A DNA stretch of 64,000 nt from Tessaracoccus palaemonis (lineage in GTDB: Bacteria; Actinomycetota; Actinomycetes; Propionibacteriales; Propionibacteriaceae): assembly GCF_019316905.1 (NCBI RefSeq), contig NZ_CP079216.1:62001-126000 (forward strand), in the 5' to 3' direction. Positions 785-42,221 of this stretch are shown here, piece after piece. Each line of letters opens with the position of its first letter. Position 1 is the first letter of the stretch. Below the pieces are notes generated by a model. The model had not been told where the DNA came from and did not search any database. It worked only from the letters and a program-made list of their open reading frames with translations. Both the position numbers and the translations under genes were made by a program.

Positions 785-853
785 GCACAAGTGTGGCCAG
801 GGCCCAGGCACGCGCGTCATATCCGAGTGCTCCGGCTCTGGCCACAGTTGTGC
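785..853. repeat. Family A hairpin repeat, copy 1
   Basis: This imperfect palindrome of 69 bases has outer arms built on GCACAA...GTGTGGCC and GGCCACAGTTGTGC and an inner pair around GGCACGCG and GAGTGCTC. It lies in the 203-base gap between two convergent genes. Nine more copies occur in the window. Confidence 0.8.
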
Positions 854-870
854 ACGGAAGGTCGGGCGGG

Positions 871-1614
871 TCAGCCTCCGGAGGCGGCGCGGGTGAGGAA
901 CTGGCGCCAGCCGTCGACGTCGGCCAGCGGGGCGGTTATGCCCAGCTCGGACTGGACGGAGCGCACGGCGTCCCGGGTCGCAACGTCGTAGCTCCCGTTC
1001 TCGGGGCAGTCGCGGCCGAAGACGTGCCGCGCCACCCCCTGGACCACCTGGACCTGGGCGCGTGACCGCTCCCGGAACCGGGGCGCGTCGAAACCGTTGA
1101 CCGCGTTGTCGACGTGGATGTGGTTGTGGTGCTGGGCGTTGTAGCTGAGCGTCAGCGTGTACGTGAAGTGCGCGGCGAGTGAGGCGGCCAGCCGCCAGTA
1201 GCCCCGCAGCCGACCCGCGTCGTCACCCCACTCGTCGTAGCGGCACGACACCTCGCCGTCCTCGTGGCGCACGACGGCGACGTCGAAGGCCCGGCCAGCC
1301 GCGTGCCAGGACTCGCAGCGGTCGACGTAAGCGCCGTAGGTCGAGATCTCCGTCAGCCTCCCGAGCCCGGCCGCCGACTCCCAGTCGGCGGCCCAGGTGT
1401 CGAGCAGCTCGACGAACCGGGGGTCTGCCCGGAAGGACTGCCGGTTCCCCGACAGCTCGTACGACAGTGGCGCCCCAACGACGGTGTCGAACGAGACCAG
1501 GCTGTCCGGGGTCCGGCAGCCGCCGAGCGTCGACCCGTCGAACGAACCGACGTCCACGCACCCGGTCAGCGGCAGCGTCACCGCCGCCGCCAGGACCGAT
1601 CGCCTGCTGACCAT
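871..1614 (-). CDS. Exported extensin-like/M15-type lipoprotein with peptidoglycan-binding tail
   Basis: This 247-residue protein starts with a twin-arginine-like signal (SRRSVLAAAV) and a lipobox ending at Cys19 (PLTGC), so it is probably a lipoprotein on the outer face of the membrane. The middle part has HAAGRAFDVAVV and HHNHIHVD, the two motifs of extensin-like C-terminal and related zinc D,D-peptidase folds. The last 60 residues (ENGSYDVATRDAVRSVQ) resemble a peptidoglycan-binding type 1 repeat. A cell wall peptidase or wall-binding role is inferred. I chose the ATG at 1614 because the signal peptide begins there and a TAGCGT box lies seven bases upstream; a TTG at 1644 would add ten residues. 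The gene stands 78 bases from the end of the DUF885 gene and shares its strand. Confidence 0.75.
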   Translation of the reverse strand: MVSRRSVLAAAVTLPLTGCVDVGSFDGSTLGGCRTPDSLVSFDTVVGAPLSYELSGNRQSFRADPRFVELLDTWAADWESAAGLGRLTEISTYGAYVDRCESWHAAGRAFDVAVVRHEDGEVSCRYDEWGDDAGRLRGYWRLAASLAAHFTYTLTLSYNAQHHNHIHVDNAVNGFDAPRFRERSRAQVQVVQGVARHVFGRDCPENGSYDVATRDAVRSVQSELGITAPLADVDGWRQFLTRAASGG

Positions 1615-1692
1615 GGCTCCCACGCTAGGGCCGACCCGCCTCAAGACCCGCGTCGGGGTCAGCCGGAATGCTTCCCCGACGCGGAGGGCGCA

Positions 1693-3354
1693 TCAGCCGG
1701 CCAGCGCCGTGCGCAGCACGTCCAGACCGACCGACCCCAGGTCGAGAGCGCGACGGTGGAACGCCTTCAGGCTGAACTCGTCACCCTCGCGGGCCGCCGT
1801 CTCGTCGCGCGCCTGCTCCCACAGCCGCTGCCCGACCTTGTACGACGGTGCCTGTCCCGGCCAGCCGAGGTAGCGGTCGAGCTCGAAGCGCACGAACTCC
1901 TCGGCCATGTTCACGTTGGCCTTCAGGAACGGCCAGGCCTTCGCCTCGTCCCAGATGCCGCCGCCCCACTCCTCGGGGCACTCCTTGCCGAGGTGCACGC
2001 CGATGTCGAGGACGACGCGGGCGGCGCGCATGCGCTGCGCGTCGAGCATGCCCATCCGGTCGCCGGGATCGTCGAGGAAGCCGAGGTCGGCCATCAGCCG
2101 CTCCGCGTACAGGGCCCAGCCCTCGCCGTGCCCGGAGACCCAGCACAGCAGCGAGCGCCACTTGTTGAGGTCCTTCGCGCGGTAGGTCGCCTGCCCGATC
2201 TGGAGGTGGTGACCCGGCACGCCCTCGTGGTAGACGGTGGTCTTCTCGCGCCAGGTGGCGAACTCGGTCACGCCCGGCGGGACCGACCACCACATGCGAC
2301 CCGGCCGGGAGAAATCGGCCGTCGGGCCGGTGTAGTAGATCCCGCCGTCCTGCGTCGGGGCGATGCAGCACTCGAGGCGACGCAGCTCATCGGCGATGTC
2401 GAAGCTCTCGCCCGCCAGCGCGTCGACGGCCGCGTCGGCGGTGGTCTGCATCCACTTCTGGAGCGCGTCGGTGCCCTGCAACTGGCGGCCGGGGTCCTCA
2501 TCGAGGCGCTTCATGGCCTCCTCGGGGGTGGTGCCGTCGCCGTACAGCTCGACGGCGATGGCCTCCTGCTCCGTGATGATCCGCTGCAGCTCCTCGAGAC
2601 CCCACCGGTAGGTCTCGTCGAGGTCGACGGTGGCGCCGAGGAACTCCCGGGAGAAGCGCTGGTAGCGCTCGCGCCCGACCCCGTCGGCGACGGGGGCGCG
2701 GTCGGTCAGCGAGCGGAACGTGTCGGCGAGCCGCGCGTAGGCGGCGCGGGCGACATCGGCGCCGGCCGTCAGGTCCGCGCGGAGCGACTCGGGAGCGCGG
2801 TCGTCGTCGGCCAGCTGGTTCCAGAACGACGCGTCGCCGGCCAGCTCGTCGGACTGCTGGATGCCGATGTTGATCTGGCGGATCGCCGGGAACGGCAGCT
2901 CGGGGCGCTCGGCGGCGTAGCGCAGCGACTCGATGTACCCGTCGATCGCGCCGCCGACGTTTGCCATGCGGCCGGCGATGGTGCGCCAGTCGTCCTCGGT
3001 GTCGGTGGGCATCAGGTCGAAGATGCTGCGGATGTCCTGCAGCGGAGAGGCGAGATTGTTCAGGGCCGCGTACGTCTCGCCGGCGTCGAACAGCTCGAGC
3101 TCGAGCGAGAGCCGCTCGATCATCGCGTTGCGCGTCACGATGTCGTTGGCGTTGAGCGCCTCGGCCGCCTCGACCTCGCGCAGCGTCGCGCGGGTCGCGT
3201 CGGCGACCGCCTGCAGGCCGGCGGGCGAGTAGTCGTCGAGCGCGGTGTGGTCGCCCTCGAAGCCGAGGTGCGTCGCAAGGGTCGGGCTGAGGCTGACCAT
3301 GGTGTCGACGTACGCGTCGGCGATCTGATCCAGGGGGGTGCGGGTCTCACTCAT
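1693..3354 (-). CDS. DUF885-family metallopeptidase-like protein
   Basis: This 553-residue protein has the length and features of the DUF885 family of soluble alpha-helical proteins related to gluzincin metallopeptidases. The clearest mark is HEGVPGHH at residues 376-383, the family's version of a zinc-binding HExxH region, followed by GHGEGWALYAERLM, which matches the downstream helix that supplies another conserved Glu. No signal peptide is seen, so it is probably cytosolic. The natural substrate is not known for most members. The ATG at 3354 lies seven bases after a TAGTTT box (3362-3367, read on the minus strand), which suggests leaderless transcription. The promoter is divergent from the guanidine riboswitch unit. 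Confidence 0.9.
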   Translation of the reverse strand: MSETRTPLDQIADAYVDTMVSLSPTLATHLGFEGDHTALDDYSPAGLQAVADATRATLREVEAAEALNANDIVTRNAMIERLSLELELFDAGETYAALNNLASPLQDIRSIFDLMPTDTEDDWRTIAGRMANVGGAIDGYIESLRYAAERPELPFPAIRQINIGIQQSDELAGDASFWNQLADDDRAPESLRADLTAGADVARAAYARLADTFRSLTDRAPVADGVGRERYQRFSREFLGATVDLDETYRWGLEELQRIITEQEAIAVELYGDGTTPEEAMKRLDEDPGRQLQGTDALQKWMQTTADAAVDALAGESFDIADELRRLECCIAPTQDGGIYYTGPTADFSRPGRMWWSVPPGVTEFATWREKTTVYHEGVPGHHLQIGQATYRAKDLNKWRSLLCWVSGHGEGWALYAERLMADLGFLDDPGDRMGMLDAQRMRAARVVLDIGVHLGKECPEEWGGGIWDEAKAWPFLKANVNMAEEFVRFELDRYLGWPGQAPSYKVGQRLWEQARDETAAREGDEFSLKAFHRRALDLGSVGLDVLRTALAG

Positions 3355-3418
3355 GCTCCCGAAACTATCAGGGGCGGCGGGGGAGACGTCGGGTAGGATG
3401 GGCCTCGGCGACCCCGCC

Positions 3419-3457
3419 CCGGACGACGGTTCAGTACCCGGTTACGCACGACTGGCC
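3419..3457 (+). ncRNA. Guanidine-III-type riboswitch (ykkC-III)
   Basis: The leader of the two Gdx genes has the compact ykkC-III pattern. CCGG at 3419-3422 is followed by ACGA, and a second CCGG at 3438-3441 sits inside GTACCCGG; the two CCGG blocks can pair with each other. GGTTCAGT at 3428-3435 can pair with ACTGGCC at 3451-3457 with one bulged base, giving the pseudoknotted layout. The GCACGAC segment between them matches the ACAAGAC-like position of known members. This comparison is from memory of the family consensus. A short CCCC-TCA-GGGG hairpin follows at 3459-3469, and the ribosome site AGGGGA (about 3482-3487) precedes the ATG at 3495. Control at translation is likely. The match to exporter genes for guanidinium supports the call. 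Confidence 0.75.
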
Positions 3458-3494
3458 ACCCCTCAGGGGGTTCACGTGCGAAGGGGAAACTCTC

Positions 3495-3809
3495 ATGGAC
3501 TGGGTCATTCTCATCGGCTCCGGCGTTCTGGAGGCCGTCTGGGCGACGGCGCTCGGGCGCTCCGACGGGCTCAAACGGCCGGTGCCGACGGTCGTCTTCA
3601 TCGTCGCCGGGGTGCTGAGCCTCGTCGGCCTCGGTACGGCGCTCGCGACGCTGCCGACCGGCACCGCGTACGCCGTGTGGACCGCGACCGGGGCGTCGCT
3701 CACCGTCGCCTGGGCGATGCTGACCGGCGCCGAGTCGGCCAGCGTGAAGAAGGTGCTGCTGCTGACCGGGATCGTGGTCAGCGTCGTCGGGCTCAAGGTG
3801 ATCTCGTGA
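3495..3809 (+). CDS. gdx: SMR-family guanidinium exporter subunit (Gdx type), first of pair
   Basis: This 104-residue protein has four predicted membrane helices and the Gdx/SugE features of the small multidrug resistance family: the essential Glu at position 13 in GVLEAVWATAL and the LPTGTAYAVWT block in helix 2-3. Gdx proteins exchange protons for guanidinium across the cell membrane as antiparallel dimers. Here two different genes overlap, as in paired exporters such as YkkC-YkkD, so a heterodimer is likely. The upstream guanidine-III-type riboswitch supports guanidinium rather than quaternary amines as substrate. AGGGGA about eight bases upstream is the ribosome site. Confidence 0.9.
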   Translation: MDWVILIGSGVLEAVWATALGRSDGLKRPVPTVVFIVAGVLSLVGLGTALATLPTGTAYAVWTATGASLTVAWAMLTGAESASVKKVLLLTGIVVSVVGLKVIS

Positions 3810-4171
3810 AGCCGGGCTACGCGTGGCCGGTGCTGCTCGCCAGCGCCGTGCTGGAGGCCGTGTGGGCCAACGCGCTGTCCGCGAGCGCCGGGTTCAGCGT
3901 GCTGCTGCCGACGGCGGTGTTCGCCGTCGCGGTCGTCGGCTCGATGATCGGCCTGGCCGCCGCCATGCGCCACATCCCGACGGGGACGGCCTACGCCGTG
4001 TGGACCAGCGTCGGCACGGTGCTGACGGTTGCGTATGCCGCGGCGACGGGCAACGAGGAGCTGTCGTGGCTGAAGGTGGTCTTCCTCGCGGCGATCATCG
4101 GCTGCGTCATCGGCCTCAAGCGCCTCGACGCCTCGAGTGCGCGGGTCGTGGATCCTGTCGAAACGCCCTGA
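3806..4171 (+). CDS. SMR-family guanidinium exporter subunit (Gdx type), second of pair
   Basis: The start GTG at 3806 overlaps the TGA of the previous gene (GTGA), which indicates coupled translation. The 121-residue product has four hydrophobic helices, the conserved Glu at position 17 (VLEAVWA) and IPTGTAYAVWT, the same signature as its partner. It probably forms the second half of a heteromeric guanidinium exporter. Its last eight codons (about VVDPVETP) and its stop codon lie inside the first unit of the family C repeat that follows. The natural end was therefore probably rewritten by repeat insertion, and the tail beyond about residue 113 is unlikely to matter for transport. Confidence 0.88.
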   Translation: MKPGYAWPVLLASAVLEAVWANALSASAGFSVLLPTAVFAVAVVGSMIGLAAAMRHIPTGTAYAVWTSVGTVLTVAYAAATGNEELSWLKVVFLAAIIGCVIGLKRLDASSARVVDPVETP

Positions 4172-4605
4172 GCGGAGCGAAGGGTCAACCCGAGTCCCGC
4201 CTCGCTGCGCTCGGCGCCCTTCGACGAGCTCAGGGAACCGGGTGTGGCTCAGGGAACCTATTCCGGGTCGTTGAGCACTTCGACAGGCTCAGCACAGGCC
4301 CCGTCGAAACGCCCTGAGCGGAGCGAAGGGTTCAACCCGAGTCCCGCCTCGCTGCGCTCGGCGCCCTTCGACGACTCAGGGAACCGGGTGTGGCTCAGGG
4401 AAAACTGGTCCTCGGGTCGTTGAGCACTTCGACAGGCTCAGCACAGGCCCCGTCGAAACGCCCTGAGCGCAGCGAAGGGTCAACCCGGGTCCCGCCTCGC
4501 TGCGCTCGGCGCCCTTCGACGAGCTCAGGGAACCGGGTGTGGCTCAGGGAACCGATTCCGGGTCGTTGAGCCTGTCGAAACGCCCTGAGCGGAGCGAAGG
4601 GTTAA
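4154..4605. repeat. Family C repeat array, three full units and one partial
   Basis: The core GTCGAAACGCCCTGAGC starts at 4157, 4303, 4452 and 4574. The first three units are spaced 146 and 149 bases. The fourth core is 122 bases on because about 27 bases (CACTTCGACAGGCTCAGC and neighbours) are missing. Each unit contains complementary segments such as CTTCGACAGGCTCAG and CCCTGAGCGGAGCGAAGG, so it can fold on itself. The array fills the gap between gdx and a convergent penicillin-binding protein gene. A related copy in the opposite sense lies at the right edge of the window. Confidence 0.85.
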
Positions 4606-4615
4606 CAGGTCCCGA

Positions 4616-6511: not shown

Positions 6512-6590
6512 CAAGGACCTCCCGTCGTCGCGCCCAAGGCTACCGGCCGCCGGAGACGGCCTGGGACGGGCACCGTCGCATTGGGGGAAG

Positions 6591-6665
6591 CCCCGCTTCG
6601 CCGGTACCCTGGTGGGGTCATCGACGTTGGCCCTGAAGGGTACCGGTGGCAGAAACCCGTTTTCT
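6591..6665 (+). promoter_or_regulatory. Structured leader of terC, possible metal riboswitch
   Basis: CCGGTACCCT at 6601-6610 and AGGGTACCGG at 6637-6646 form a perfect ten-base-pair stem around 26 bases. Inside it GGGTC and GGCCC can pair with one wobble. GGGGGAAG lies just upstream. TerC-family genes are often controlled by the manganese-sensing yybP-ykoY riboswitch, and the placement fits, but I could not match that consensus convincingly. It may be another RNA element or a protein-binding site. Confidence 0.4.
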
Positions 6666-6688
6666 TGCCCGTATTCAGGAGCAGTTCC

Positions 6689-7894: not shown

Positions 7895-7898
7895 TCCC

Positions 7899-9240: not shown

Positions 9241-9375
9241 ATCCGGGCTCCCGGGCCTCCCGGCTCCCGGGCCTCCCGGCTCCCGGGGCTCCCGGCCTCC
9301 CGGGCCTCCCGGCTCCCGGGGCTCCCGGCCTCCCCGTCCTCCCGGGCCACCCCGTCCTCCTGGCCTCCCCGCGAA
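9241..9375. repeat. Low-complexity CCCGG-rich tandem tract
   Basis: The tract is built of irregular 9-base blocks such as CTCCCGGGC and CTCCCGGCC, repeated more than ten times directly after the MFS stop codon. It can form many alternative GC hairpins and could stop transcription, but it lacks a T-run. I see no coding potential that resembles the neighbours. Confidence 0.75.
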
Positions 9376-9430: not shown

Positions 9431-9500
9431 GTGCAGAAAAGTGGCCAGAGCCGGAGCACGCGGATATTCGACGCGTGCCGGGGGCCAGGCCACAGTTGTG
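9431..9500. repeat. Family A hairpin repeat, copy 2
   Basis: The left arm is GTGCAGAAAAGTGGCC and the right arm GGCCACAGTTGTG. The inner arms are GAGCACGCG and CGCGTGCC around a short loop. It lies in the 557-base gap 9240-9796. Confidence 0.8.
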
Positions 9501-9589
9501 TCGGGTGTCGGGCGCCTAGACACCCTCGAAGGCCTGCTCTCCCGCCAGTTCCTTCCTCGGCGCTCAAGCGCCCCGCGTCTCCCCCATGC

Positions 9590-9660
9590 GTGCACAACTG
9601 TGGCTATAGCCCAAGCACCCGGGCATATCCCGCGTGCTGGGGGCCAGGCCACAGTTGTGC
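9590..9660. repeat. Family A hairpin repeat, copy 3
   Basis: The outer arms CACAACTGTGG and CCACAGTTGTG are perfectly complementary over eleven bases. The inner arms AGCACCCGGG and CCCGCGTGCT pair with one mismatch around CATAT. It is 90 bases downstream of copy 2. Confidence 0.85.
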
Positions 9661-9796
9661 GGAAGGGTGCCCGGGCGGGCGGTAGTGCCGGCCGCGGACG
9701 TCAGGTGAGGTGGGGAGGTGTTGGACTGTGCACAGGGTTATCCACAGGGCGGCCTGAACGTCGCGGGCTGCCCTGCGCGGGGGTCACAGTTGCGAG

Positions 9797-10632
9797 ATGC
9801 ACCTGATGAGCTCTGGACCCTCCATCAACTCCGGGGTCATGTCCTACGCGGAGATCCTTGGAGAAGGCGCCTCGCGACGCGAACTGGAGGCCGCCTTGGC
9901 CGCGGGCTCAGTGAGACGCGTCCAGCGCGGTTGGTACGCACTGCCCTGGGCAGACGAGCGGGTGGTCCGTGCGCTGCACGGCGGCTGCCGGCTTGGTTGC
10001 CTGACCGGCTGCGCCTTTCACGGCCTGTGGGTGCCGACGCATGACGGGATCCATGCCGTCTACGGTCGGGGCCGATCCCCGCGCAACGGGATGGGCTCGT
10101 CCTGCATGCCGACGATCGACGTCGGCCGAAGAACGCCGTCTGGTCGCTGGCCGACTGTCTGCGGCAGGTTGCGCACCGGCACGACCACGAGACGACGTTG
10201 ATCGTGCTGGAATCGGCCTTGAACCTTGGACTGATCCGGGTCGCCGACGTGCAGGACATCGTCGCGTCCATCCCGGAGGAGCGGCGAGGCTTCCTGAGCC
10301 TCCTGAACAGAGCGGAGTCGGGGAGCGAGACCCGGGTGCGGCTGTTCCTTCAGCGTCGCCATGTCACAGTCTCCCCGCAGGTCTACCTACCCGGCATCGG
10401 CCGGGTCGACCTCCTCGTCGGCCGCAGGTTGATCGTCGAGTGCGACAGTGCCGAGTACCACAGCAGCCCGGAGCAACGTCGTCTCGACTATGCGAGGGAC
10501 TTGGCGGCGCGCGACCAGGGCTTCGATCACCTGAGGCTCGACTATCACCAGATCTGGCATCAGTGGGGTAGCACGCAGGAGAGCCTGTTGCGGGAGATCC
10601 GGCGCGACCGTCATCGTCGACCTCCGCGGTGA
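9797..10632 (+). pseudogene. AbiEi-like/DUF559 protein, frameshifted
   Basis: The first part (from ATG 9797) encodes a winged-helix-like AbiEi N-terminus with ASRRELEAALAAGSVRRVQR and GWYALP. The frame continues to an out-of-frame tail that ends at 10201. In the next frame, continuous with the expected protein, LVLHADD...NAVWSLADCLRQV leads into LIVLESALNLGLI and then a DUF559-type nuclease-like domain (GRVDLLVGRRLIVECDS, EYHSSPEQRRLDYARD). Adding one G in the CGGGAT at about 10087-10092 restores a single frame of about 279 codons, the normal length for this family. A real mutation or a base-calling error in a G-run are both possible. A TTG at 10198 could in principle start the second half alone. 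Family members are often orphan antitoxin-like or Vsr-like proteins of unknown role. Confidence 0.75.
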
Positions 10633-10692: not shown

Positions 10693-10762
10693 GTGCACAA
10701 CTGTGGCCTGGTCCCCGGCACGTGTCGCATTTCCGAGTGCTCCGGCTCTGGCCACTTCTGTG
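10693..10762. repeat. Family A hairpin repeat, copy 4
   Basis: The outer arms are GTGCACAACTGTGGCC and GGCCACTTCTGTG. The inner arms are GGCACGTG and GAGTGCTC. It lies after the frameshifted gene in the gap 10633-11111. Confidence 0.8.
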
Positions 10763-10871
10763 TACCGGCAGGCATGGCTGCTTGGGGTTATTGGTCCAGT
10801 GGCAAGGGGTCGGTATCGGGGTCCGCCAGCCGGGGACTGGGCGCGGTTGGCCTGGTGGGAGTCACCATCTC

Positions 10872-10945
10872 GCGCACAACTGTGGCCTGGTCCCCAGCAC
10901 GCGTCCTATTTCCGCGTGCTCCGGCTCTAGCCACTTTTTGTGCAC
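10872..10945. repeat. Family A hairpin repeat, copy 5
   Basis: The inner arms AGCACGCG and CGCGTGCT are perfectly complementary. The outer arms are GCGCACAACTGTGGCC and AGCCACTTTTTGTGCAC. It is 109 bases after copy 4, in the same orientation. Confidence 0.82.
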
Positions 10946-11022
10946 GGAAGGTGCCGAGAGATGGTGTGGGAGGGCCGAGCCGAGGGAGGGTGGGTAGAGG
11001 TTCGGAGGGGGAGGGCAGCGAA

Positions 11023-11094
11023 CGGGAGAGGGGGAGCGACCGGGAGAGGGGGAGCGACCGGGAGAGGGCGGAGCGACCGGGAGAGGGCGGAGCC
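11023..11094. repeat. 18-base tandem repeat, four units
   Basis: Units start at 11023, 11041, 11059 and 11078. Each is a version of CGGGAGAGGGGGAGCGAC, the third and fourth carrying one extra or changed base. The tract ends 17 bases before the stop codon of the convergent response regulator gene. Confidence 0.85.
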
Positions 11095-23123: not shown

Positions 23124-23462
23124 ATGAAGCGCTACTGCTTCCTCGGACACGTCGACCCGGCGAACCTGGCGAAGTACCGCGAGGCCCACGCGGCAGTGTG
23201 GCCGGAGCTGCTCCGCGCCCTGCGGGACGCGGGCTGGCACAACTACTCGCTGCACCTGCGCGACGACGGCCTGCTCGTCGGCTATGTCGAGTCCGAGGAC
23301 CTCGACGCGGCCCAGGCGAGGGTCGCGGCGACCGACGTCAACCGTCGCTGGCAGGCCGAGATGGGCCGCCTGTTCGCGTCGGAGGGGTCTCCCGACGAGT
23401 CGTGGGAGTTCCTGGACGAGGTCTTCCACCTCGAATCGCAGCTCGCCGCCGCCGATTCCTGA
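23124..23462 (+). CDS. rhaM: L-rhamnose mutarotase
   Basis: This 112-residue protein matches the RhaM family: a ferredoxin-like fold starting RYCFLGHVDPANLAKYREAH, then WPELLRALRDAGWHNYSLHL and a terminal ESWEFLDEVFHLE. It speeds the exchange between alpha and beta anomers of L-rhamnose so that the isomerase gets its preferred form. GGAAGGA lies eight bases before the ATG. It stands after the terminator of the ABC operon and may have its own promoter. A 24-base copy of its 3' end occurs about 300 bases downstream. Confidence 0.93.
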   Translation: MKRYCFLGHVDPANLAKYREAHAAVWPELLRALRDAGWHNYSLHLRDDGLLVGYVESEDLDAAQARVAATDVNRRWQAEMGRLFASEGSPDESWEFLDEVFHLESQLAAADS

Positions 23463-23474
23463 GTCGACTTTCCC

Positions 23475-23545
23475 GCACAACTGTGGCCAGAGCCGAAGCA
23501 CTCGGCGTATATCCGGGTACTGGGGCTCTGGCCACTTCTGTGCAC
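23475..23545. repeat. Family A hairpin repeat, copy 6
   Basis: The outer arms are GCACAACTGTGGCCAGAGCC and GGCTCTGGCCACTTCTGTGC. The inner arms are AGCACTCGG and CCGGGTACT around CGTATAT. It begins 12 bases after the rhaM stop codon. Confidence 0.85.
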
Positions 23546-23741
23546 GCGACGGGCGGTGCACCGTCGTCGCGCCATCCGAGCCCGTCGCCTCATCCGGACG
23601 CCCCAACGTCACCCAGACGCCCGTGGGTCAACCCGAAAATCGGGCAGTGCCCGCTTCTCCCCGGTCCGATGACGAGAAGCGCACACTGCTTAAGGGGTGT
23701 CTGGGTGGTGGGGACGGACGAACGGTCTCGTCGGGGGGTGG

Positions 23742-23765
23742 AGCTCGCCGCCGCCGACTCCTGAG
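23742..23765 (+). repeat. Duplicated 3' end of rhaM
   Basis: These 24 bases match 23441-23464, the last codons and stop of rhaM, with one difference. They again encode LAAADS and a stop, and are again followed closely by a family A repeat. The copy has no gene of its own and is a duplication scar. Confidence 0.8.
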
Positions 23766-23774
23766 CCGCCTCTC

Positions 23775-23847
23775 GCGCATAAGAGTGGCCCGGGCCGGAG
23801 CACTCGGCGTATATCCGGGTACTGGGGCTCTGGCCACAGTTGTGCAC
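23775..23847. repeat. Family A hairpin repeat, copy 7
   Basis: The outer arms are GCGCATAAGAGTGGCC and GGCCACAGTTGTGCAC; the CATAA to TTGTG pairing would use a wobble. The inner loop is the same CGTATAT as in copy 6. It follows the duplicated rhaM end. Confidence 0.85.
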
Positions 23848-23895
23848 ACGACGGGCGGTGCGGGGGAGTCTGGGAGGGCTGGTGGACGGGGCGGT

Positions 23896-23959
23896 TGACC
23901 GAGTGTCCGGCTGATCGAGTGCCCTGCTGACCGAGTGCCCGGCTGACCGTGTGCCGGGG
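23896..23959. repeat. 16-base tandem repeat, four units
   Basis: Units of the form TGACCGAGTGCCCGGC start at 23896, 23912, 23928 and 23944, with one to four changes each. It lies between family A copies 7 and 8 and holds no recognisable gene. Confidence 0.8.
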
Positions 23960-23989
23960 AGTTGACGACCGGGTGGCCGGCTGACCGGC

Positions 23990-24006
23990 TCAGCAGCCGA
24001 GCATCT
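23990..24006 (-). repeat. Duplicated 3' end of galE
   Basis: The 17 bases match 24294-24310, the stop and last codons of galE, with one difference. They lie just before family A copy 8. With the rhaM copy this shows that both flanking gene ends were duplicated into the gap. Confidence 0.65.
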
Positions 24007-24021
24007 GCTGAGCGGCCTCTC

Positions 24022-24094
24022 GCGCACAACTGTGGCTAGAGCCGGAGCACTCGGCGTATATCCAGGTGCTGGGGCTCTGGCCACTTTTGTGCAC
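24022..24094. repeat. Family A hairpin repeat, copy 8
   Basis: The outer arms are GCGCACAACTGTGGCTAGAG and CTCTGGCCACTTTTGTGCAC. The inner arms are AGCACTCGG and CAGGTGCT. It keeps the central CGTATAT. Confidence 0.85.
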
Positions 24095-24169
24095 GCGACG
24101 GGCGGTGCAGGGGCTGGTCGGGTGGTGAGCGTCCGGGGTGTGATGGCTCGGACGTGTGGGGCACCTCTT

Positions 24170-24243
24170 GCGCATAACTGTGGCCAGAGCCGGAGCACTC
24201 GGCGTATATCCGGGTGCTGGGGCCCTGGCCACTTTTATGTACA
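24170..24243. repeat. Family A hairpin repeat, copy 9
   Basis: The left arm carries CATAA and the right arm TTATG, a matched change from the usual CACAA and TTGTG. The inner arms AGCACTCGG and CCGGGTGCT pair with one wobble. It ends 50 bases before the galE stop. Confidence 0.85.
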
Positions 24244-24293
24244 CGACGCGCGGCGCCGGTGGCGTCGGGCAGATGTGTGGGAGGGGGCCCGGT

Positions 24294-25283
24294 TCAGTAG
24301 CCGAGCATCTCCTTGCGCACCGGGAGCCAGGCGATGGCGTCGCGGACGGCCTGCTGCTCGGTGAGCTTGGCCTCCCAGCCCAGCACGTCCTTGGCCTTCG
24401 GCGACACGGAGTAGACACCCGCGACGTCACCGGGGCGCGACGGGCCGAACTCGACCTTCAGCGGGTCGCCGGAGATCTCCTCGAACGACGCGGCGAGCTC
24501 CTTGACCGTGACGCCGTTGCCGGTGCCGATGTTGAAGACCTGGTAGTGCTCCTCGGCCGTGGCCTTGTCGAAGCCCTCCAGCGCGGCGACGTGGGCCTGC
24601 GCCAGGTCCCAGACGTGGATGAAGTCGCGGATGCCGGAGCCGTCGCGGGTGGGCCAGTCGACGCCGGTGACCGTGAAGGTCTCGCCCTTCTGCCAGGCCT
24701 CGAGCAGCTTCGCGAGCACGTGCGAAGGGTGCTCCAGCTGCTGCCCGGAGCGGAGCTTCGGGTCGGTGCCGATGGGGTTGAAATAGCGCAGCGACAGCAC
24801 GTGCATGTCGGAGGCCTTCGTGAAGTCCTCCAGGATCATCTCGACCATGAACTTGGTGCGCGCGTACGGCGAGCCGGGCCGCAGCGGGGACTCCTCGGTG
24901 ACGATGAAGTTCTCGTCAGGAGCGTAGATCGACGCCGACGAACTGAACAGGAAGCGGTGCACGCCGTTGCGGTCGAGGGCCTCGAGCAGCGTGACCGTCT
25001 TGCTGACGTTGTTCTCGTAGTAGGAGAGCGGCTGCTCGACGGACTCGGGCACGACGATCTTCGCGGCGCAGTCCACGACGGCGTCGATCTGGTTCTCGGC
25101 GCAGATCCGGTCGATCAGCTCGACGTCGGCGATGTCGCCCTCGTACAGCTTGCGGTCGCCGATGAACTCGCGGCGTCCGGTGGAGAAGTCATCGAGGATG
25201 ACGACCTGGTGGCCGGCGTCCTCACAGGCCGATGCGACGGTGCTGCCGATGTAGCCGGCGCCGCCGGTGATCAGGACCAACAA
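24294..25283 (-). CDS. galE: UDP-glucose 4-epimerase
   Basis: This 329-residue short-chain dehydrogenase-type protein has the NAD-binding GGAGYIGS at residues 7-14, the catalytic Ser region SSSASIY and the catalytic Tyr/Lys pair in YARTK. GalE-type features RYFNPIGTD and RDGSGIRDFIHVWDLA are present. It interconverts UDP-glucose and UDP-galactose for sugar use or cell wall polymers. The start is a TTG at 25283, with AAAGGGA seven bases upstream; the next codon is also TTG. It is a single gene. It converges on the repeat-rich gap after rhaM. Confidence 0.9.
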   Translation of the reverse strand: MLVLITGGAGYIGSTVASACEDAGHQVVILDDFSTGRREFIGDRKLYEGDIADVELIDRICAENQIDAVVDCAAKIVVPESVEQPLSYYENNVSKTVTLLEALDRNGVHRFLFSSSASIYAPDENFIVTEESPLRPGSPYARTKFMVEMILEDFTKASDMHVLSLRYFNPIGTDPKLRSGQQLEHPSHVLAKLLEAWQKGETFTVTGVDWPTRDGSGIRDFIHVWDLAQAHVAALEGFDKATAEEHYQVFNIGTGNGVTVKELAASFEEISGDPLKVEFGPSRPGDVAGVYSVSPKAKDVLGWEAKLTEQQAVRDAIAWLPVRKEMLGY

Positions 25284-36067: not shown

Positions 36068-36832
36068 ATGACGTTGGGAACCATCTTCCTCAGCGAGCTG
36101 GTCGGTACGGCCATGCTGATCCTGCTTGGTGCTGGCGTGGTCGCCAATACCGCCCTCAACAAGTCCAAGGGCCAGAACACCGGCTTCCTGTTCGTGAACT
36201 TCGGCTGGGGCTTCGCGGTGTTCTGCGGTGTTCTCGTGTCGGCCCGCTCGGGCGGCCACCTGAACCCGGCAGTGACCATCGGCGTCGCGTCCTCCGGTGC
36301 CGCTGAGTTCGTCCCCGGCATCCCGGTCAACTTCGCCTCGATCTGCACCTACATCGGTGCCCAGATGATCGGCGCGATCCTCGGCGCGTTCCTCGCCTAC
36401 CTCGCCTACAAGAAGCAGTTCGACGCCACCGAGGACGGCCCCACCAAGCTGGGTGTCTTCTCGACCGCTCCCGAGGTGCGCAGCACCGGCTGGAACATCG
36501 TCACTGAGGCCATCGGCACCTTCGTCCTGGTCTTCGTCGTGCTCGCCTTCGGCCGTTGGAACGGAGCCGAGACCGCCGGCAGCCTCGGTGCGCTCGGCGC
36601 CCTGGCCGTCGCCTTCCTGGTGTTCGTGATCGGCACCGGCCTCGGCGGCCCCACCGGTTACGCCATCAACCCCGCCCGTGACCTCGGCCCCCGCATCGCG
36701 CACGCTCTGATCCCGATGAAGAACAAGGGCAGCAACGACTGGGGCTACTCCTGGATCCCCGTCGTCGGCCCGATCATCGGCGGCGTCCTGGCCGGTCTGC
36801 TCTCCACCCCGCTGCTGGGTGCGATCGGCTGA
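36068..36832 (+). CDS. glpF: Glycerol facilitator (aquaglyceroporin)
   Basis: This 254-residue protein has six membrane helices and the two MIP half-helices with GGHLNPAVTIG and GYAINPARDLGPR. The Asp after the second NPAR fits glycerol channels rather than strict water channels. It lets glycerol enter by diffusion. GGAG lies seven bases before the ATG. The glycerol kinase gene follows after 54 bases, so the pair is likely one operon that traps glycerol as glycerol 3-phosphate. Confidence 0.95.
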   Translation: MTLGTIFLSELVGTAMLILLGAGVVANTALNKSKGQNTGFLFVNFGWGFAVFCGVLVSARSGGHLNPAVTIGVASSGAAEFVPGIPVNFASICTYIGAQMIGAILGAFLAYLAYKKQFDATEDGPTKLGVFSTAPEVRSTGWNIVTEAIGTFVLVFVVLAFGRWNGAETAGSLGALGALAVAFLVFVIGTGLGGPTGYAINPARDLGPRIAHALIPMKNKGSNDWGYSWIPVVGPIIGGVLAGLLSTPLLGAIG

Positions 36833-36886
36833 TCAGCCCGTTCCGACAACATCAATCACCAACAACACACAAGGAAGTGCTGATTA

Positions 36887-38410
36887 ATGGCTGAGAAGAA
36901 GTACGTTCTGGCGGTCGATCAGGGAACCACGAGCTCCCGCGCCATCATCTTCGATCACAAGGGCACCATTGTCGCGACGGGTCAGAAGGAGCACGAGCAG
37001 ATCTTCCCGCGCGCCGGCTGGGTCGAGCACAACCCGATCGAGGTCTGGGACAACGTCCGCGCGGTCGTCGGCGAGGCTCTCGCCAACGGCTCGATGAACA
37101 AGCACGAGATCCACGCGGTCGGCATCACCAACCAGCGCGAGACCACCGTCGTCTGGGACAAGAACACCGGTGAGCCCGTCTACAACGCCATCGTCTGGCA
37201 GGACACCCGCACCGGCAAGATCGTCGAGGAGCTCGGCGGCGAGGTCGGCCAGGACAAGTACAAGGACCGCGTCGGTCTGCCTCTGGCGACCTACTTCTGT
37301 GGCCCCAAGGTCAAGTGGATCCTCGACAACGTCGAGGGCGCCCGCGAGCGCGCCGAGGCCGGCGACCTCATCATGGGCACCATGGACACCTGGGTCCTGT
37401 GGAACATGACCGGTGGTGTCAACGGCGGCGTCCACGTCACCGACGTGACCAACGCCTCCCGCACCATGCTCATGGACCTCAAGACCCTCGACTGGGATCC
37501 CGAGATCGCCGCGGACATGACCATCCCGATGTCGATGCTGCCGGAGATCCGCAGCTCGGCGGAGACCTACGGCGTCGGCCGTGAGCAGGGCCTCCTCGCG
37601 GGTGTCCCGATCGCCGGCATCCTGGGCGACCAGCAGGCCGCGACCTTCGGTCAGGCCTGCTTCGAGCCCGGCATGGCGAAGAACACCTACGGCACCGGCA
37701 ACTTCATGCTGATGAACACCGGCACGGACATCGTCCCGTCGAAGAACGGCCTCCTGACCACCGTCTGCTACAAGATCGGCGACCAGGCTCCCATCTACGC
37801 CCTCGAGGGTTCGATCGCCGTCACCGGATCGCTGGTCCAGTGGCTGCGCGACAACCTGCGCATGTTCGACTCCGCTCCCGAGGTCGAGACCCTGGCCGCC
37901 ACGGTCGAGGACAACGGCGGCGCGTACTTCGTGCCCGCGTTCTCCGGCCTGTTCGCCCCGTACTGGCGTGCAGACGCCCGCGGCGCGATCGTCGGCCTGA
38001 CCCGTTACGTCAACCGTGGCCACATCGCCCGCGCCGTCCTGGAGGCCACCGCCTACCAGAGCCGTGAGGTGCTGGACGCGATGGAGGCCGACTCGGGCGT
38101 CAAGCTGGCCGAACTCAAGGTCGACGGCGGCATGACCGCCAACGAGACCCTGATGCAGTTCCAGGCCGACCAGCTGGGTGTGGACGTCGTCCGCCCGGTC
38201 GTCGCCGAGACCACCGCGCTGGGCGCCGCGTACGCGGCCGGCATCGCGACCGGCTTCTGGGGCGGCGAGCAGGACGTCATCGACAACTGGGCCGAGGCCA
38301 AGCGCTGGAGCCCGACGATGGAGGAGGGCGAGCGCGCCCGCCTCTACCGCCAGTGGAAGAAGGCGGTCACCCGCACCTTCGACTGGGTCGACGAGGACAG
38401 CAACGAGTGA
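36887..38410 (+). CDS. glpK: Glycerol kinase
   Basis: This 507-residue FGGY-family kinase begins with the ATP-site [10 protein letters not shown] and has the substrate loop [17 protein letters not shown], then [13 protein letters not shown] and [14 protein letters not shown]. Length and motifs match GlpK throughout. It phosphorylates glycerol with ATP. AAGGAAG lies nine bases before the ATG. The codon choice is more uniform than in neighbours, as in highly expressed genes. A strong hairpin follows. Confidence 0.97.
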
Positions 38411-38430
38411 TTCCACTCACGTAACCACAG

Positions 38431-38464
38431 CGAGGGGGCCCCGGCAGTTGCCGGGGCCCCCTCG
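38431..38464. terminator. Hairpin terminator shared by glpK and the convergent YhgE gene
   Basis: CGAGGGGGCCCCGG (38431-38444) and CCGGGGCCCCCTCG (38451-38464) are perfectly complementary around a six-base loop. It lies 20 bases after the glpK stop and 15 bases from the end of the convergent gene. Confidence 0.82.
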
Positions 38465-38479
38465 TCGTGTGCGCTCCTG

Positions 38480-40633
38480 TCAGTCGAAGGGCGGGTGCAG
38501 ATCCGTCATGGAGAACCGACGGCGACGGTGCACCACCAGCATCAGCAGGCCGATGCACGAGCCGAAGAGCACGAGCAGCAGCGCGATGTCGCGCAGGAAC
38601 TTCGTCATCAGGCCACCGGAGATGGCGATGCGGAACGCGTCGATGGTGTAGGTCATCGGCATGAAGTGTCCGATGGTCGAGAACAGCGGCGGCAGGAGTT
38701 CCGGGGGATAGGTGCCGCCGGCCGACGACAGCTGCAGGATCAGCAGGACCAGCATCACGGCGGTCGCGACGAGGCCGAAGGACGTTCTCATCAGGTGCGC
38801 GACGGCGGAGAAGGCCAGCGCGACGAGCGTGACGAGCAGGATCGTCAACCAGGGGTGGATGGGGTCGAGACCCAGCCCGATCCAGGCGACCGCGAGCATG
38901 ATCCAGCTGGCCACCACCGACAACGCACCGAGGGTCAGCCAGGCGGTCACCCCCACGCGGAGGTTGCTGCCGCGGCTGGCCAGGATGCGGCCCGTGATGG
39001 GGCGGACGAGGAAGAACGCGGAGATGCCCATCACCCACAGCGCGATGGAGAAGAACATCGGCGCCAGGCCGCGGCCGTAGTAGGTGGCGGGGTTGTCGAC
39101 CGTCATGCTGACGTCCACGGGGGCCGACAGCACGCTGACGGCGTCGGTCTCCTCGTCGTCGGTCAGAACCGGGATCTGCTTGACCCCGGAACTGAGCCCG
39201 GTCGCCAGGGTTTCGGCGCCGTCGGCCAGCTGCGCGATGCCGTCGTCGAGCGAGGTCGCGCCGTCGCTCAGCGTGTGGAGGCCGTCGGTCAGGGTGTCGG
39301 TGCCCGTGGCGAGTTTCTGCGCGCCGGCGTCGAGGTCGCCCAGACCGCTGTTCAGGGTCTTGGCCCCGGAGTAGGCCTGGGAGGCGCCGTCGGACAGGTC
39401 TGAGGCGCCGTCGGCAACCTGCTGCGCACCGTCGTTGAGCTGGTCGATCTTGCTCTGGGCTTCGGATGCCTTGGCCGACAGGTCGCCGGCGTTGTCGAGT
39501 GCCTTGTCGGCGTCGTTGACGGCGTCCGCGATGGTCGTCGCGTGGTCGGCGGCCGTGTCGGCGCGATTGGCGAGAGTGTCCGCGAGCCTCTGGAGTTCCT
39601 TGTAGTTGGCGTCGGAAGAGAGGCCGGGATTGTCGGCGCCGAGCTGGTCGACGGCGTCGCTGATGTCGCCAGAGACGTCGGCGATGCTGGACGACCCCGT
39701 CGCGACGGTGTTGCTCAGATCTGCCGCGGCATCGGCCGCACCGGTCACGGCATCCTGGATGTCGGGCAGTCGGTCGGCGGCCAGGGTCAGGACGGGGTCG
39801 AGCGTGTCGGCGAGCGTCTGGGTCCCGTCTGCCACCTGCTTCGACCCGTCGGCGAGACGGCTGGCGCCGTCGTTGAGGTCCCCCAGGCCGCTCGTGAGCG
39901 TGGATGCGCCGTCTGAGGCGGTGGAGGCGCCGGTCGCGAGTTGGGCCGCGCCGGTATTGAGCTTGTCGGCACCGGTGACGGCGTCCTTGGCGCCGTCGGC
40001 CAGCTTCGTACTGCCGTCGTGCGCCGTCGCGAGCCCGTCGTCGAGCTGCTGTGCCCCGTCGGCGGCCTCGACGAGCGACTCCCGGATCGTCGCAAGGTTG
40101 GCGAAGACAGCCTCGAAGTAGCTCTTCACGGCGGTCTCGTCGATGGCCTTCGCGATGGAGGTCTGGGCCGAGTTGGTGATGGTGCCGATGACGAAGCCGT
40201 TGGCGTCGTTGCGGCGCAGCATGATCTGGGCCCGCTGCGGGTTGTCGCTGTCGCCGCTTGTCAGGTCCACGGAGAAGCTCTTGGGCACCGTGATGACCAG
40301 GTAGTAGTCTCCCCGGGCGAGGCCGTCGGCCGCCTCCTGCTCGGTGGTGTCGGTGAACTTGAAGGTCCCCGCGTCGTGCAGCGAGTCGACGAAGTCCTGG
40401 CCCGCGTGGATGTCCTTGCCGTTGAAGGTGGTGGGCTCGTCGTGGTTCACGATCGCGACAGGGACGTTGTCGAGCCTGCCGTAGGGGTCCCAGTTCCCGG
40501 CCAGGTAGATGCAGCCGTAGAGCATCGGGATGAGCAGGATGAAGGCCAGGGCGAGACGCGGCAGCGGGCCGCGGAAGCGCTTGATCTCGAAGCGGGCCAG
40601 CGTGAGCGGGTTGTTGCGGTCCAGGTCAGGCAT
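38480..40633 (-). CDS. YhgE/Pip-type membrane protein 2
   Basis: This 717-residue protein is a second YhgE/Pip protein. It starts with a cytosolic segment and a helix at 26-47 (ALAFILLIPMLYGCIYLAG), followed by YGRLDNVPVAIVNHDEP, the classic start of the external part. The stalk (about 195-510) has many ADGA and DLSDGA repeats. Five to six helices follow from about 525. It resembles an ABC-2 permease and overlaps by eight bases the gene for an ABC ATPase-like partner. Export of an envelope molecule is the likely role. It shares strand and promoter with the ATPase gene. Confidence 0.92.
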   Translation of the reverse strand: MPDLDRNNPLTLARFEIKRFRGPLPRLALAFILLIPMLYGCIYLAGNWDPYGRLDNVPVAIVNHDEPTTFNGKDIHAGQDFVDSLHDAGTFKFTDTTEQEAADGLARGDYYLVITVPKSFSVDLTSGDSDNPQRAQIMLRRNDANGFVIGTITNSAQTSIAKAIDETAVKSYFEAVFANLATIRESLVEAADGAQQLDDGLATAHDGSTKLADGAKDAVTGADKLNTGAAQLATGASTASDGASTLTSGLGDLNDGASRLADGSKQVADGTQTLADTLDPVLTLAADRLPDIQDAVTGAADAAADLSNTVATGSSSIADVSGDISDAVDQLGADNPGLSSDANYKELQRLADTLANRADTAADHATTIADAVNDADKALDNAGDLSAKASEAQSKIDQLNDGAQQVADGASDLSDGASQAYSGAKTLNSGLGDLDAGAQKLATGTDTLTDGLHTLSDGATSLDDGIAQLADGAETLATGLSSGVKQIPVLTDDEETDAVSVLSAPVDVSMTVDNPATYYGRGLAPMFFSIALWVMGISAFFLVRPITGRILASRGSNLRVGVTAWLTLGALSVVASWIMLAVAWIGLGLDPIHPWLTILLVTLVALAFSAVAHLMRTSFGLVATAVMLVLLILQLSSAGGTYPPELLPPLFSTIGHFMPMTYTIDAFRIAISGGLMTKFLRDIALLLVLFGSCIGLLMLVVHRRRRFSMTDLHPPFD

Positions 40634-41285
40634 GATGCGCCTCCATCTCGATGGTCATGGCCTCGGGGGGAATCGTCGTCCGCTCGGTGGTTGCGGCGAT
40701 CACGGTGATCCCCTCCGCGGCGAGGGCGAGCAGGCCGTTCCACAGCTGCTCCTGGTCGGCCAGCGTCGCGCCGTGGTCGAAGTCGTCGAGGACCACGATC
40801 TTCGGCGGCTGGATGGTTGCGAAGGCAATGGCCGCGCGGGTCTGGTCCGCTGGGGTGAGCTGGCGGTACAGCGTCGTGAGCTGTGCCTTGAGGCCGAGCA
40901 CGCCTGCGGTGTGGAGGTAGTTCGCGAGCCTCGCCCTGGCCGGGCAGGCGTCGGCGAGCCCACGCTCGGTGATGCAGTCCTCGATCGACAGGGACCCCTC
41001 GGGAACGACCAGCTCGTCGATCCTGGCGACCGACGTGAGTCGTCGGATCCGACCCGGGTGGGCGATCCCGTCGACCCCGTCGACTTTCAGTTCTCCCCGG
41101 ACACCTCGCATGCGGCCCGTCAGCGCCAGTAGGAGTGACGACTTGCCGGAGTCGGGATCGCCGACGACGGCCACGACGGCTCCCGCCGGGATGTGGATGT
41201 CGATCGGCCTGAAGACCTCGCCGGCCGGCGTATGCACCGTCAGAGAGGTGGCCGTGAGCAGGGGCTCGCCATGTGTTCCAGTCAC
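40626..41285 (-). CDS. ABC ATPase-like partner of YhgE protein 2
   Basis: This 219-residue protein has Walker A GDPDSGKSSL and Walker B KIVVLDDFD, but the signature region reads QLTPADQTRAA in place of LSGGQ, and the catalytic Glu after Walker B is Asp. It is a divergent ABC ATPase. The GTG at 41285 lies six bases after a TATGCT box (41292-41297), suggesting a leaderless message that starts under the first TetR operator. The end overlaps the YhgE start. It may energise or gate the YhgE protein. Confidence 0.8.
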   Translation of the reverse strand: MTGTHGEPLLTATSLTVHTPAGEVFRPIDIHIPAGAVVAVVGDPDSGKSSLLLALTGRMRGVRGELKVDGVDGIAHPGRIRRLTSVARIDELVVPEGSLSIEDCITERGLADACPARARLANYLHTAGVLGLKAQLTTLYRQLTPADQTRAAIAFATIQPPKIVVLDDFDHGATLADQEQLWNGLLALAAEGITVIAATTERTTIPPEAMTIEMEAHHA

Positions 41286-41296
41286 AAGCCGAGCAT

Positions 41297-41326
41297 ACTC
41301 ATAAATGAGTGTACTCAGAAATGAGC
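41297..41326. promoter_or_regulatory. Two tandem TetR operators in a divergent promoter
   Basis: ACTCATAAATGAGT (41297-41310) and ACTCAGAAATGAGC (41313-41326) are near-palindromes 16 bases apart. They lie between the -10 boxes of the ABC gene (TATGCT, minus strand) and of tetR (TAGACT at 41327-41332). Repressor bound here would block both directions. Confidence 0.75.
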
Positions 41327-41339
41327 TAGACTGCCGACC

Positions 41340-42086
41340 ATGGACGTCCCCAGCACCCTCGGTCTCCGGGCCCGCAACAAGGCCGCGAAGCGCGCCGCCA
41401 TCTCGCGGGCAGCGGCCGAACTGTTCGCCGCCCACGGGTACGCGGGCACGACGACGCAGCAGGTGGCCCGTGCGGCCGACGTCGCCGAGGGGACCGTGTT
41501 CAGGTACGCGAGCTCGAAGCCCGAGCTGCTGCTGATGGTGATCAATGAGCATCTCCGGCCGCTCGTGGAGTCTGCCTCCGACCTGCCCGACGGGGCCGCC
41601 CCCGACGAGGCGGTGCTCGGCATCCTCGATCCGATCATCGACCTGGCCCACGACCAGCCCGACAACGCGGCCCCCTTCCTACGGGAGGTGCTGTTCGGGG
41701 AGGACGGCCCGCAGCGCTCCGAGTCACTCGAGATCGTCGCGGAGCTGCGGGGACGGATCGCGGCCGTCGTCGCCCCCTACGGGGGGCGGGGCGATGGCGT
41801 CGACGTCGAGGTCGGCCCGCGTAATGTCCAGGGTTCTCGCTCCTTCGGGGGGCGGTTCGAGGGCGTGGGCGTTGAGGTGGGCCCGCAACCGGTCCAGGGT
41901 TCTCGCCCCCTCGGGGGGCAGTTCGAGGGCATGGGCCTCGAGGAGGTGGCGAGCTGGCTCTTCTCGACGGTGGTGACGGAGCTGTTGCGCGAGGTCGTCG
42001 GCCTCGGCTCGTCCGACCCCCGGGCCGTCCTCCGGGCCCGTGTCCGGGTGTTGCTTCGCGGGCTCGGCATCCCCGTCGGCCCCTGA
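41340..42086 (+). CDS. TetR-family regulator with an internal 22-residue tandem repeat
   Basis: This 248-residue protein has a TetR helix-turn-helix at residues 18-63 (AAAELFAAHGYAGTTTQQVA, then VAEGTVFRYASSKPELL). The ligand domain is interrupted by a tandem repeat: two units of 22 residues (148-169 and 170-191), each of the form GGRFEGVGVEVGPQPVQGSR, and a third partial unit. The helical domain resumes at EEVASWLFSTVV. The repeat is encoded by 66-base units at 41781 and 41847. The ATG lies seven bases after TAGACT, so the message is probably leaderless. It should control itself and the divergent ABC-YhgE operon. Confidence 0.88.
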   Translation: MDVPSTLGLRARNKAAKRAAISRAAAELFAAHGYAGTTTQQVARAADVAEGTVFRYASSKPELLLMVINEHLRPLVESASDLPDGAAPDEAVLGILDPIIDLAHDQPDNAAPFLREVLFGEDGPQRSESLEIVAELRGRIAAVVAPYGGRGDGVDVEVGPRNVQGSRSFGGRFEGVGVEVGPQPVQGSRPLGGQFEGMGLEEVASWLFSTVVTELLREVVGLGSSDPRAVLRARVRVLLRGLGIPVGP

Positions 42087-42148
42087 TCTTCCCTGCCCCT
42101 GCTCTTCCCGCGACCCCACCCTCGCCTTCCAGGTCCCGCCGCTGTTCC

Positions 42149-42221
42149 GCGCACAACGATGCCTATTTCGGGAGCGCTGCGATATACGAACAGCGCTGGG
42201 AGCATACGCATCGTTGTGCAC
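42149..42221. repeat. Family A-like hairpin repeat, divergent copy 10
   Basis: The outer arms GCACAACGATGC (42151-42162) and GCATCGTTGTGC (42208-42219) pair perfectly. The inner AGCGCT blocks at 42173 and 42192 also pair. The bases differ from copies 1-9, but the arm layout, the ATATAC-like loop and the length are kept. Confidence 0.75.

Follow-up and report, generated by a model that had tools for sequence, protein, structure and literature searches.

Dispersed 73-bp hairpins in Tessaracoccus palaemonis as possible copies of the ends of a small nuclease-encoding mobile unit

How do short palindromic repeats spread through a bacterial chromosome, and which enzyme serves them? Repeats resembling the repetitive extragenic palindromic (REP) sequences have long been puzzling, and to our knowledge the only enzymes linked with them until now have been the REP-associated tyrosine transposases (RAYTs). 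The question is raised by ten hairpins in a 64,000-nucleotide stretch of Tessaracoccus palaemonis, here called the window (positions 62001-126000 of contig C1, the single contig of 3,204,344 bp of this genome, designated G000), which a first-pass annotation had taken for one family and had compared with REP elements moved by a RAYT. We favour another enzyme, and consider it fairly probable that these hairpins are copies, dispersed and non-autonomous, of the two ends of a mobile unit of about 1.1 kb with the order hairpin, nuclease gene, hairpin. As we read the comparison, the hairpins would work like REP elements and RAYTs with an unrelated enzyme. If they do copy the ends of a nuclease gene, a REP-like repeat family is served by a kind of enzyme other than the one known so far.

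All ten sites hold hairpins, nine of which form one family, type A, on the forward strand. These are copies 1 (783..855), 2 (9431..9503), 3 (9590..9662), 4 (10693..10765), 5 (10872..10945), 7 (23775..23847), 8 (24022..24094), and 9 (24170..24242), together with copy 6 (23473..23545), which belongs with copies 7 to 9 to a local array of four, at which the relative G021 matches as one. Type A is 73 nt long in eight of the nine window copies and 74 nt in that at 10872. A covariance model built from the nine copies scores them at 73-93 bits, whereas the tenth copy of the first-pass annotation (42149..42221, reverse strand; orthologue in G021 at 2998853) reaches only 30 bits and is a member of a sister family, type B, with the same ends, length, and centre as type A. 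A gene for a LigD-type polymerase-ligase (42264-44444) stands immediately downstream of this type B hairpin. When folded as single-stranded DNA and compared with dinucleotide shuffles, eight of the ten copies give z values of -2.9 to -6.9, with weaker folding at 10693 and 23775 (z -1.7 and -1.6).

Between copies 3 and 4 lies a candidate partner gene. The first-pass annotation, in stating that no transposase was visible, was right as to Y1 transposases and missed this gene, which is frameshifted. Its first piece (9797..10201, forward strand) encodes an AbiEi-like winged-helix N-terminal part (AbiEi_4 at E 5e-4, below the cut-off; 104 bits against a profile of relatives) and its second piece (10198..10632, forward strand) an MTES_1575/DUF559 nuclease domain of the PD-(D/E)XK kind (MTES_1575 at E 9e-9, just below the cut-off; 256 bits against the profile), which keeps the acidic residues E, D, and E-x-D. 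The gene sits between two type A hairpins on each side, copies 2 and 3 being its outer and inner left partners and copies 4 and 5 its inner and outer right partners. Low-complexity tandem repeats (9243-9346 and 11012-11087) lie on each outer side of this hairpin-nuclease cluster. A second gene of the same genome (L212, at about 830.4-831.2 kb) is intact and has a type B hairpin on each side, and in G021 such a gene (L213) stands between two pairs of type B hairpins. In T. bendigoensis (G011) the gene L215 has type D hairpins on both sides, one of them degenerate, in T. caeni (G012) L217 is accompanied by two long palindromes of other sequence, and a gene in G004 has a pair of 71-75-nt palindromes. 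Matched hairpins of other sequences flank the gene on both sides in other Tessaracoccus genomes (L217, L221, L227, L229, and L238). As the type A partner gene is frameshifted in G000, type A is probably no longer spreading there; the type B partner gene is intact.

The wider association was measured over two sets of loci. The first comprised 13 loci (eight from carriers of the hairpins, five from other genomes) taken from MTES_1575 matches in 39 Tessaracoccus genomes; among the rest of these, L214, L218, L219, and L222 have no flank repeats, and L216 and L223 have other repeats. In G000, matches at E 0.001 besides the type A gene are only the type B gene and a frame of 812 residues, which suits a type A that has stopped spreading. 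Across the 39 genomes the number of MTES_1575 genes in carriers (3, 1, 3, and 2) is not separable from that in the others (0-7). The second set, of 40 loci, was chosen by profile match alone before the flanks were viewed (20 mostly full and 20 partial matches), and in 19 of the 40 (12 + 7) repeats match between the 450 bp upstream and those downstream. Of the 53 loci, five were set aside because of the length of the protein or of the flanks; in the remaining set, repeats that match across the two flanks occur at 23/48 nuclease loci compared with 7/188 ordinary genes of G021 (p 6e-13), and hairpins with a score of at least 15 on both flanks at 5/48 compared with 1/188. The best downstream hairpin starts 0-12 bases past the stop codon at L217, L221, L225, L227, L229, L231, L232, L236, L238, and L247, and many of the nuclease-flanking hairpins have an ATAT-like tip. 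A GWYA-like and ECDS subfamily makes up 13 of the 53 loci, part of which are probably the same locus in related species; ten show matching repeats at their flanks, L217 carries hairpins on either side, and L232 and L236 have a downstream hairpin only. The units have unrelated housekeeping genes as neighbours, and in the six loci examined these mostly vary from one locus to the next; L227 and L229 have neighbours in common and are probably one site in two species. Outside the genus, two of four relatives, one Tsukamurella locus and one on a phage-labelled contig, have matching flank hairpins.

Some flanks hold repeats of other kinds. A motif resembling CGACACGCCG or the complement of it recurs in those of L224, L230, L234, L245, L252, and L254, and may represent another repeat superfamily tied to MTES_1575/DUF559 genes. 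The strongest flank repeat (score 83) is inverted, non-palindromic, and present on both sides of a DUF559-type gene (L241, in G053), and looks like long terminal inverted repeats. The Tsukamurella 'plasmids' that carry relatives (L264-L266; PLSDB records NZ_LR134468, NZ_LR134454, and NZ_LR134466) contain pheA and similar genes, so that they may be misfiled parts of chromosomes.

The predicted product of the partner gene is an AbiEi-like winged helix joined to a PD-(D/E)XK domain of the Vsr and homing-endonuclease type. In an alignment of 18 sequences, which includes the second piece from the window, four residues (E170, D197, E207, and R226) are invariant, and D209 is almost so; because the sequences were chosen partly for their flank repeats, the alignment serves for the protein only. 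We take the acidic pattern E170/D197/E207/D209 to be that of PD-(D/E)XK enzymes, with a catalytic role. Two PDB entries match the profile: 3hrl_A, at E 2e-11, is named 'Endonuclease-Like Protein', and 3r3p_A, at E 5.5e-4, is named 'Mobile intron protein' and is, we presume, the Vsr-like homing endonuclease I-Bth0305I. The N-terminal part matches AbiEi models weakly, and relatives carry the NCBI name 'type IV toxin-antitoxin system AbiEi family antitoxin domain-containing protein'. No AbiEii toxin was found among ten neighbouring proteins from six loci, no nuclease relatives in viral contigs, and no intron or intein with the nuclease gene.

The hairpins belong to a superfamily with one architecture, 73 bp long with the ends GTGCACAA...TTGTGCAC and an AT-containing centre, of which five types, A to E, were distinguished. 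Their stems are wholly different: CTGTGGCC in type A and CGATGCC in type B, both found in G000 and G021, ATCTGCG in type C (T. caeni), ATCTCTG in type D (T. bendigoensis), and TTCAGG in type E (Subtercola boreus, which we take to belong to the Microbacteriaceae, a family and order other than those of Tessaracoccus). As unrelated stems go with common ends, length, and centre, it is the shape, the length, eight end bases, and the AT-containing centre that persist as the stems are replaced. Type A itself is present in two of the 198 genomes of the family. The ends with 46-66 bases between them occur at 14 places in four of 39 Tessaracoccus genomes (control 0), 11 of these places being 73 bp long. 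With up to two mismatches, GTGCACAA-N57-TTGTGCAC gives 47, 21, 24, and 12 matches in four Tessaracoccus genomes, in none of which the reversed control pattern occurs, and 0-2, like the control, in the other 193 of 197 family genomes; this count misses some carriers, as G020 holds a type B-like 73-mer with four end mismatches. A scan of 84,980 genomes with AT added in the centre returned five records. Two come from T. caeni and one each from T. bendigoensis and Subtercola boreus; the fifth is a chance match (15/36 pairs). The exact type A pattern was found in none of the 84,980, among which its own and very near records may be absent. In Subtercola boreus 19 places match at up to three mismatches, compared with three in the control, and the 15 retrieved are all hairpins of type E (17-28/36 pairs); among 398 genomes drawn from its family, only this one stood above background. 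Plasmids and phages gave no match to one type A copy, plasmids none to one type C or one type E copy, and viral contigs held no hairpins. Genes adjoining the Subtercola and the Tessaracoccus elements gave weak or broad matches only, except for one pair at 39% (L179/L164). A second palindromic repeat family, of the CCCTGAGCCTGTCGAAGGG type, has several copies in the window (4118-4606 and 63892-63931), and similar sequence also adjoins several 73-bp hairpins elsewhere in the genome.

Does selection hold the folded shape? The first-pass annotation proposed this, or copying as a unit or a functional transcript, from changes matched between the two arms, and its named examples exist. In the nine window copies, however, they are not in excess over shuffles: two pairs are changed on both sides where shuffles average 3.7, and the cells that pair make up 88.5%, compared with 89.4% in shuffles, so that paired changes in the window's own copies were rejected as a sign of selection. 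The same holds for 45 type A copies drawn from two genomes, with 8 such pairs against 8.0 and a covariation score matched by 209/500 shuffles. Under a tree-based null, a rough one started from the consensus, the type A paired fraction (0.795 against 0.728) is reached in 0/300 simulations and its covariation score in 9/300. The argument does hold in two sister families, types B (32 copies) and E (15 copies), whose covariation scores are reached by 0/500 shuffles and 0/300 tree simulations; copies from G021, G011, G012, and Subtercola had been admitted by 17-20/36 paired positions, a filter that can inflate pairing. The count of pairs changed on both sides is weaker there, being reached by 67/500 shuffles for type B and 46/500 for type E. 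Type D (11 copies) shows no excess over shuffles and 8/300 against the tree null, and type C (10 copies) no excess. The five consensus sequences nonetheless pair at 26-31/36 positions despite their differing stems. Between 13 orthologous copies of G000 and G021, seven double changes keep the pair, 34 changes lead to a mismatch, and five to a wobble pair.

The elements lie between genes: of 64, not one falls within a called gene, and a single type B element overlaps a called start by 6 bp. Convergent gaps hold 22 of 38 classifiable type A cases (the 74-nt copy excluded), compared with 4/22 for type B and 64/335 for gaps in general. The gene calls, made by a simple codon-usage script, missed the broken gene at 9797-10632; once it is counted, copies 9431 and 9590, included in the 22, turn tandem. 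The suggestion that the hairpin is copied as a unit, as REP elements are, held among the 20 most similar copy pairs more than 10 kb apart. Twelve type A pairs are identical at 65-67/73 positions while their 20-base flanks match at only 5-11; eight type B pairs show the same identity, 65-67/73, and four of the eight have a flank matching at 15/20 or more. Dispersal as solo copies was counted for types A to E. Outside the hairpin ends a short GGAAG-like extension is enriched and the bases are G-rich, and there are local arrays with partly duplicated flanks. In G000 every exact 13-mer end of type A lies in a hairpin copy, and those of type B likewise except one without a partner at 2345257 of the genome; a variant 13-mer lies at 3131908. 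The only larger elements with hairpin ends that were found are hairpin-gene-hairpin units. Where the window has its cluster of four copies, G021 (C1, about 3028803-3028828) has a collapsed element of 25 bp with both ends kept and most of the hairpin deleted.

A RAYT as partner was rejected, and that proposal of the first-pass annotation is not supported: PF01797 (Y1/RAYT transposase) is absent from all five carrier genomes, while the control search detected it in E. coli and in four more of the 14 named genomes. Instead, we infer that binding and cutting of the hairpin by the nuclease are what spreads it. It would recognise its own hairpin either as a cruciform or folded in single-stranded DNA at replication forks, with the ends and length, both fixed, and the AT-containing tip serving as contacts; it would then nick or cut at the hairpin, and repair or replication would copy the hairpin or the whole unit to another intergenic place. 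Protein and hairpin would diverge together, so that each lineage comes to have a hairpin sequence of its own with the same shape, and rapid co-divergence could leave little recognisable besides shape, length, and a few end bases. Extended to the Actinomycetes at large, this would be an undescribed class of mobile elements, consisting of genes for AbiEi-winged-helix/Vsr-like nucleases that carry their own AT-tipped hairpin of 50-80 bp at both ends and release solo hairpins, a generalisation to which we lend somewhat less than even credence. If true, the REP/RAYT strategy would have been invented twice independently, the second time with a restriction-type nuclease rather than an HUH transposase cutting the folded hairpin. 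Many genes at present annotated as AbiEi antitoxin-domain or DUF559 would thereby gain a suggested function, and it would be clear how a repeat family can exchange its sequence from species to species and yet retain the fold. A literature search by title and the opening of the abstract, with subscription papers mostly outside it, gave no paper linking DUF559, AbiEi, or MTES_1575 proteins with palindromic repeats.

Several observations weigh against dispersal by the nuclease, and some of them suit an origin of the hairpins as relics, similar to REP elements or miniature inverted-repeat transposable elements (MITEs), of a lost or unrecognised transposase, the nuclease genes being cargo or sharing the same insertion-tolerant gaps; we consider this unlikely. 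No insertion with target duplication was seen at the aligned sites that differ between G000 and G021, and sites without a copy in G021 mostly show remnants or larger changes, which is the decayed look expected of relics; the nearest to an empty site, at 358248, lacks in G021 the 73 bp and about 9 bp beside them, with no duplication. Orthologous elements are only slightly more identical than their flanks (88.7% and 85.6% over 13 pairs of G000 and G021). The nuclease loci include 25 of 48 without matching flank repeats, another point for relics, and some flank repeats are non-palindromic (L224, L226, L234, and L241); a hairpin on either flank is mildly enriched, at 12/48 compared with 21/188, the ordinary genes coming all from one genome. 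For type C no partner gene was found, the T. caeni nuclease (L217) having other hairpins, and for type E none in the stretches around 15 Subtercola sites, the whole genome not having been searched; both fit relics as well. Flank repeats are missing from two Tsukamurella relatives, the two positive loci outside the genus had their gene limits set by hand, and protein and hairpin divergence correlate weakly (Mantel 0.277, 26/5000), partly from orthologous loci. What speaks against relics is that for types A, B, and D the gene has cognate hairpins on both sides, that in other species it has matched hairpins of unrelated sequence, that matching flank repeats are so much commoner at nuclease loci (23/48 vs 7/188), and that a Y1 transposase is absent from the five carriers.

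Other readings leave the nuclease no part in moving the hairpins or give the hairpins a function of their own. AbiEi proteins regulate their own promoters, a hairpin with a score of at least 15 lies upstream of 8/53 of the genes, and NCBI calls the relatives AbiEi antitoxin domain proteins, all of which would suit hairpins that are operators through which the winged helix controls its own gene and a dispersed regulon. We think this quite improbable, since the five loci with such hairpins on both flanks have one starting 8-12 bases past the stop codon, type A favours convergent gaps (22/38), where operators are of little use, and AbiEii is missing from the ten neighbouring proteins of six loci. 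That preference for convergent gaps, together with the stable folds, could instead mark functional RNA hairpins or bidirectional terminators at gene ends; this appears very improbable given that no T-run follows the hairpins and the bases beyond their ends are G-rich, that type B lacks the preference (4/22), that length (73 bp) and ends are fixed, and that type A covariation does not rise above shuffles. Rfam gave no match in the window at gathering thresholds, and over 23440-24300 only microRNA models below threshold (E 0.14 and 0.83). Chromosomal position gives rise to a further idea. The contig's first open frame reads as dnaA, followed by dnaN and recF and preceded by yidC and rsmG, and the origin-proximal half holds 26/28 type A clusters (Kolmogorov-Smirnov p 5e-8) compared with 13/20 type B clusters, or, by genome-wide 13-mers alone, 24/25 compared with 12/19 (p 0.014); in G000 type A lies almost only within 900 kb of the origin, and type B over the whole chromosome. 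That the hairpins are origin-domain sites, with type A marking the origin-proximal half of the chromosome, is nevertheless the most improbable reading of all, as type A occurs in only 2/198 family genomes and its clusters have no strand or replichore orientation bias (16 vs 12). The hairpin ends were also tried as DnaA boxes and rejected: the boxes near dnaA are TTGTCCACA/TTATCCACA, and TTGTGCAC is absent from that stretch.

Against this background, dispersal of the hairpins by their partner nuclease can be set beside known systems. The AbiE type IV toxin-antitoxin systems are similar in the weak AbiEi match of the N-terminal part, and differ in that here a nuclease domain is fused to it and no AbiEii stands among the ten neighbours. 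With the Vsr-like homing endonucleases (3r3p) the product has a related nuclease domain by profile (E 5.5e-4), and there is the analogy of a selfish gene that spreads by cutting; here, however, no intron or intein was seen, a winged helix is added, and hairpins occur both at the flanks and as solo copies. ERIC/RU and other palindromic MITE-like elements are imperfect palindromes of about 70-130 bp between genes, from which the present hairpins differ in the absence of a visible target duplication and in the nuclease gene between them. Closest are the REP elements and REPINs with their RAYTs. Like these, the hairpins are intergenic palindromes dispersed as a unit, with lineage-specific sequences, and a gene for a DNA-processing enzyme stands between its own repeats (here types A, B, and D); the unit is inverted and symmetrical, with conserved ends and a pairing interior of fixed length. 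The enrichment at gene ends is likewise a REP trait according to one account (PMC3733652), which gives REPs a length of 20-40 bp and describes CGTC REPs as palindromic and apparently without a dedicated transposase; the hairpins resemble these last in lacking one, and differ in their 73 bp and their candidate partner gene. REPs bear a tag, GTAG/GTGG (or CGTC), unpaired beside the stem, according to two sources (PMC3733652, PMC6006769), whereas by inspection the five hairpin consensus sequences have no such tag beside the stem, and their conserved ends pair together except at one or two positions. The enzymes differ too, the Y1 (HUH) transposase being absent from the five carriers and the enzyme linked to the hairpins being a PD-(D/E)XK nuclease of the Vsr and homing-endonuclease type. 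For REPINs, the published description (PMC3116915) gives conserved 16-mers whose first residues lie 71 bp apart, conserved ends, and an interior kept in length and pairing. The layout of the hairpins is REPIN-like and agrees closely with this description, except in the defining enzyme; hairpins and gene together have the anatomy of a REPtron built around another enzyme.

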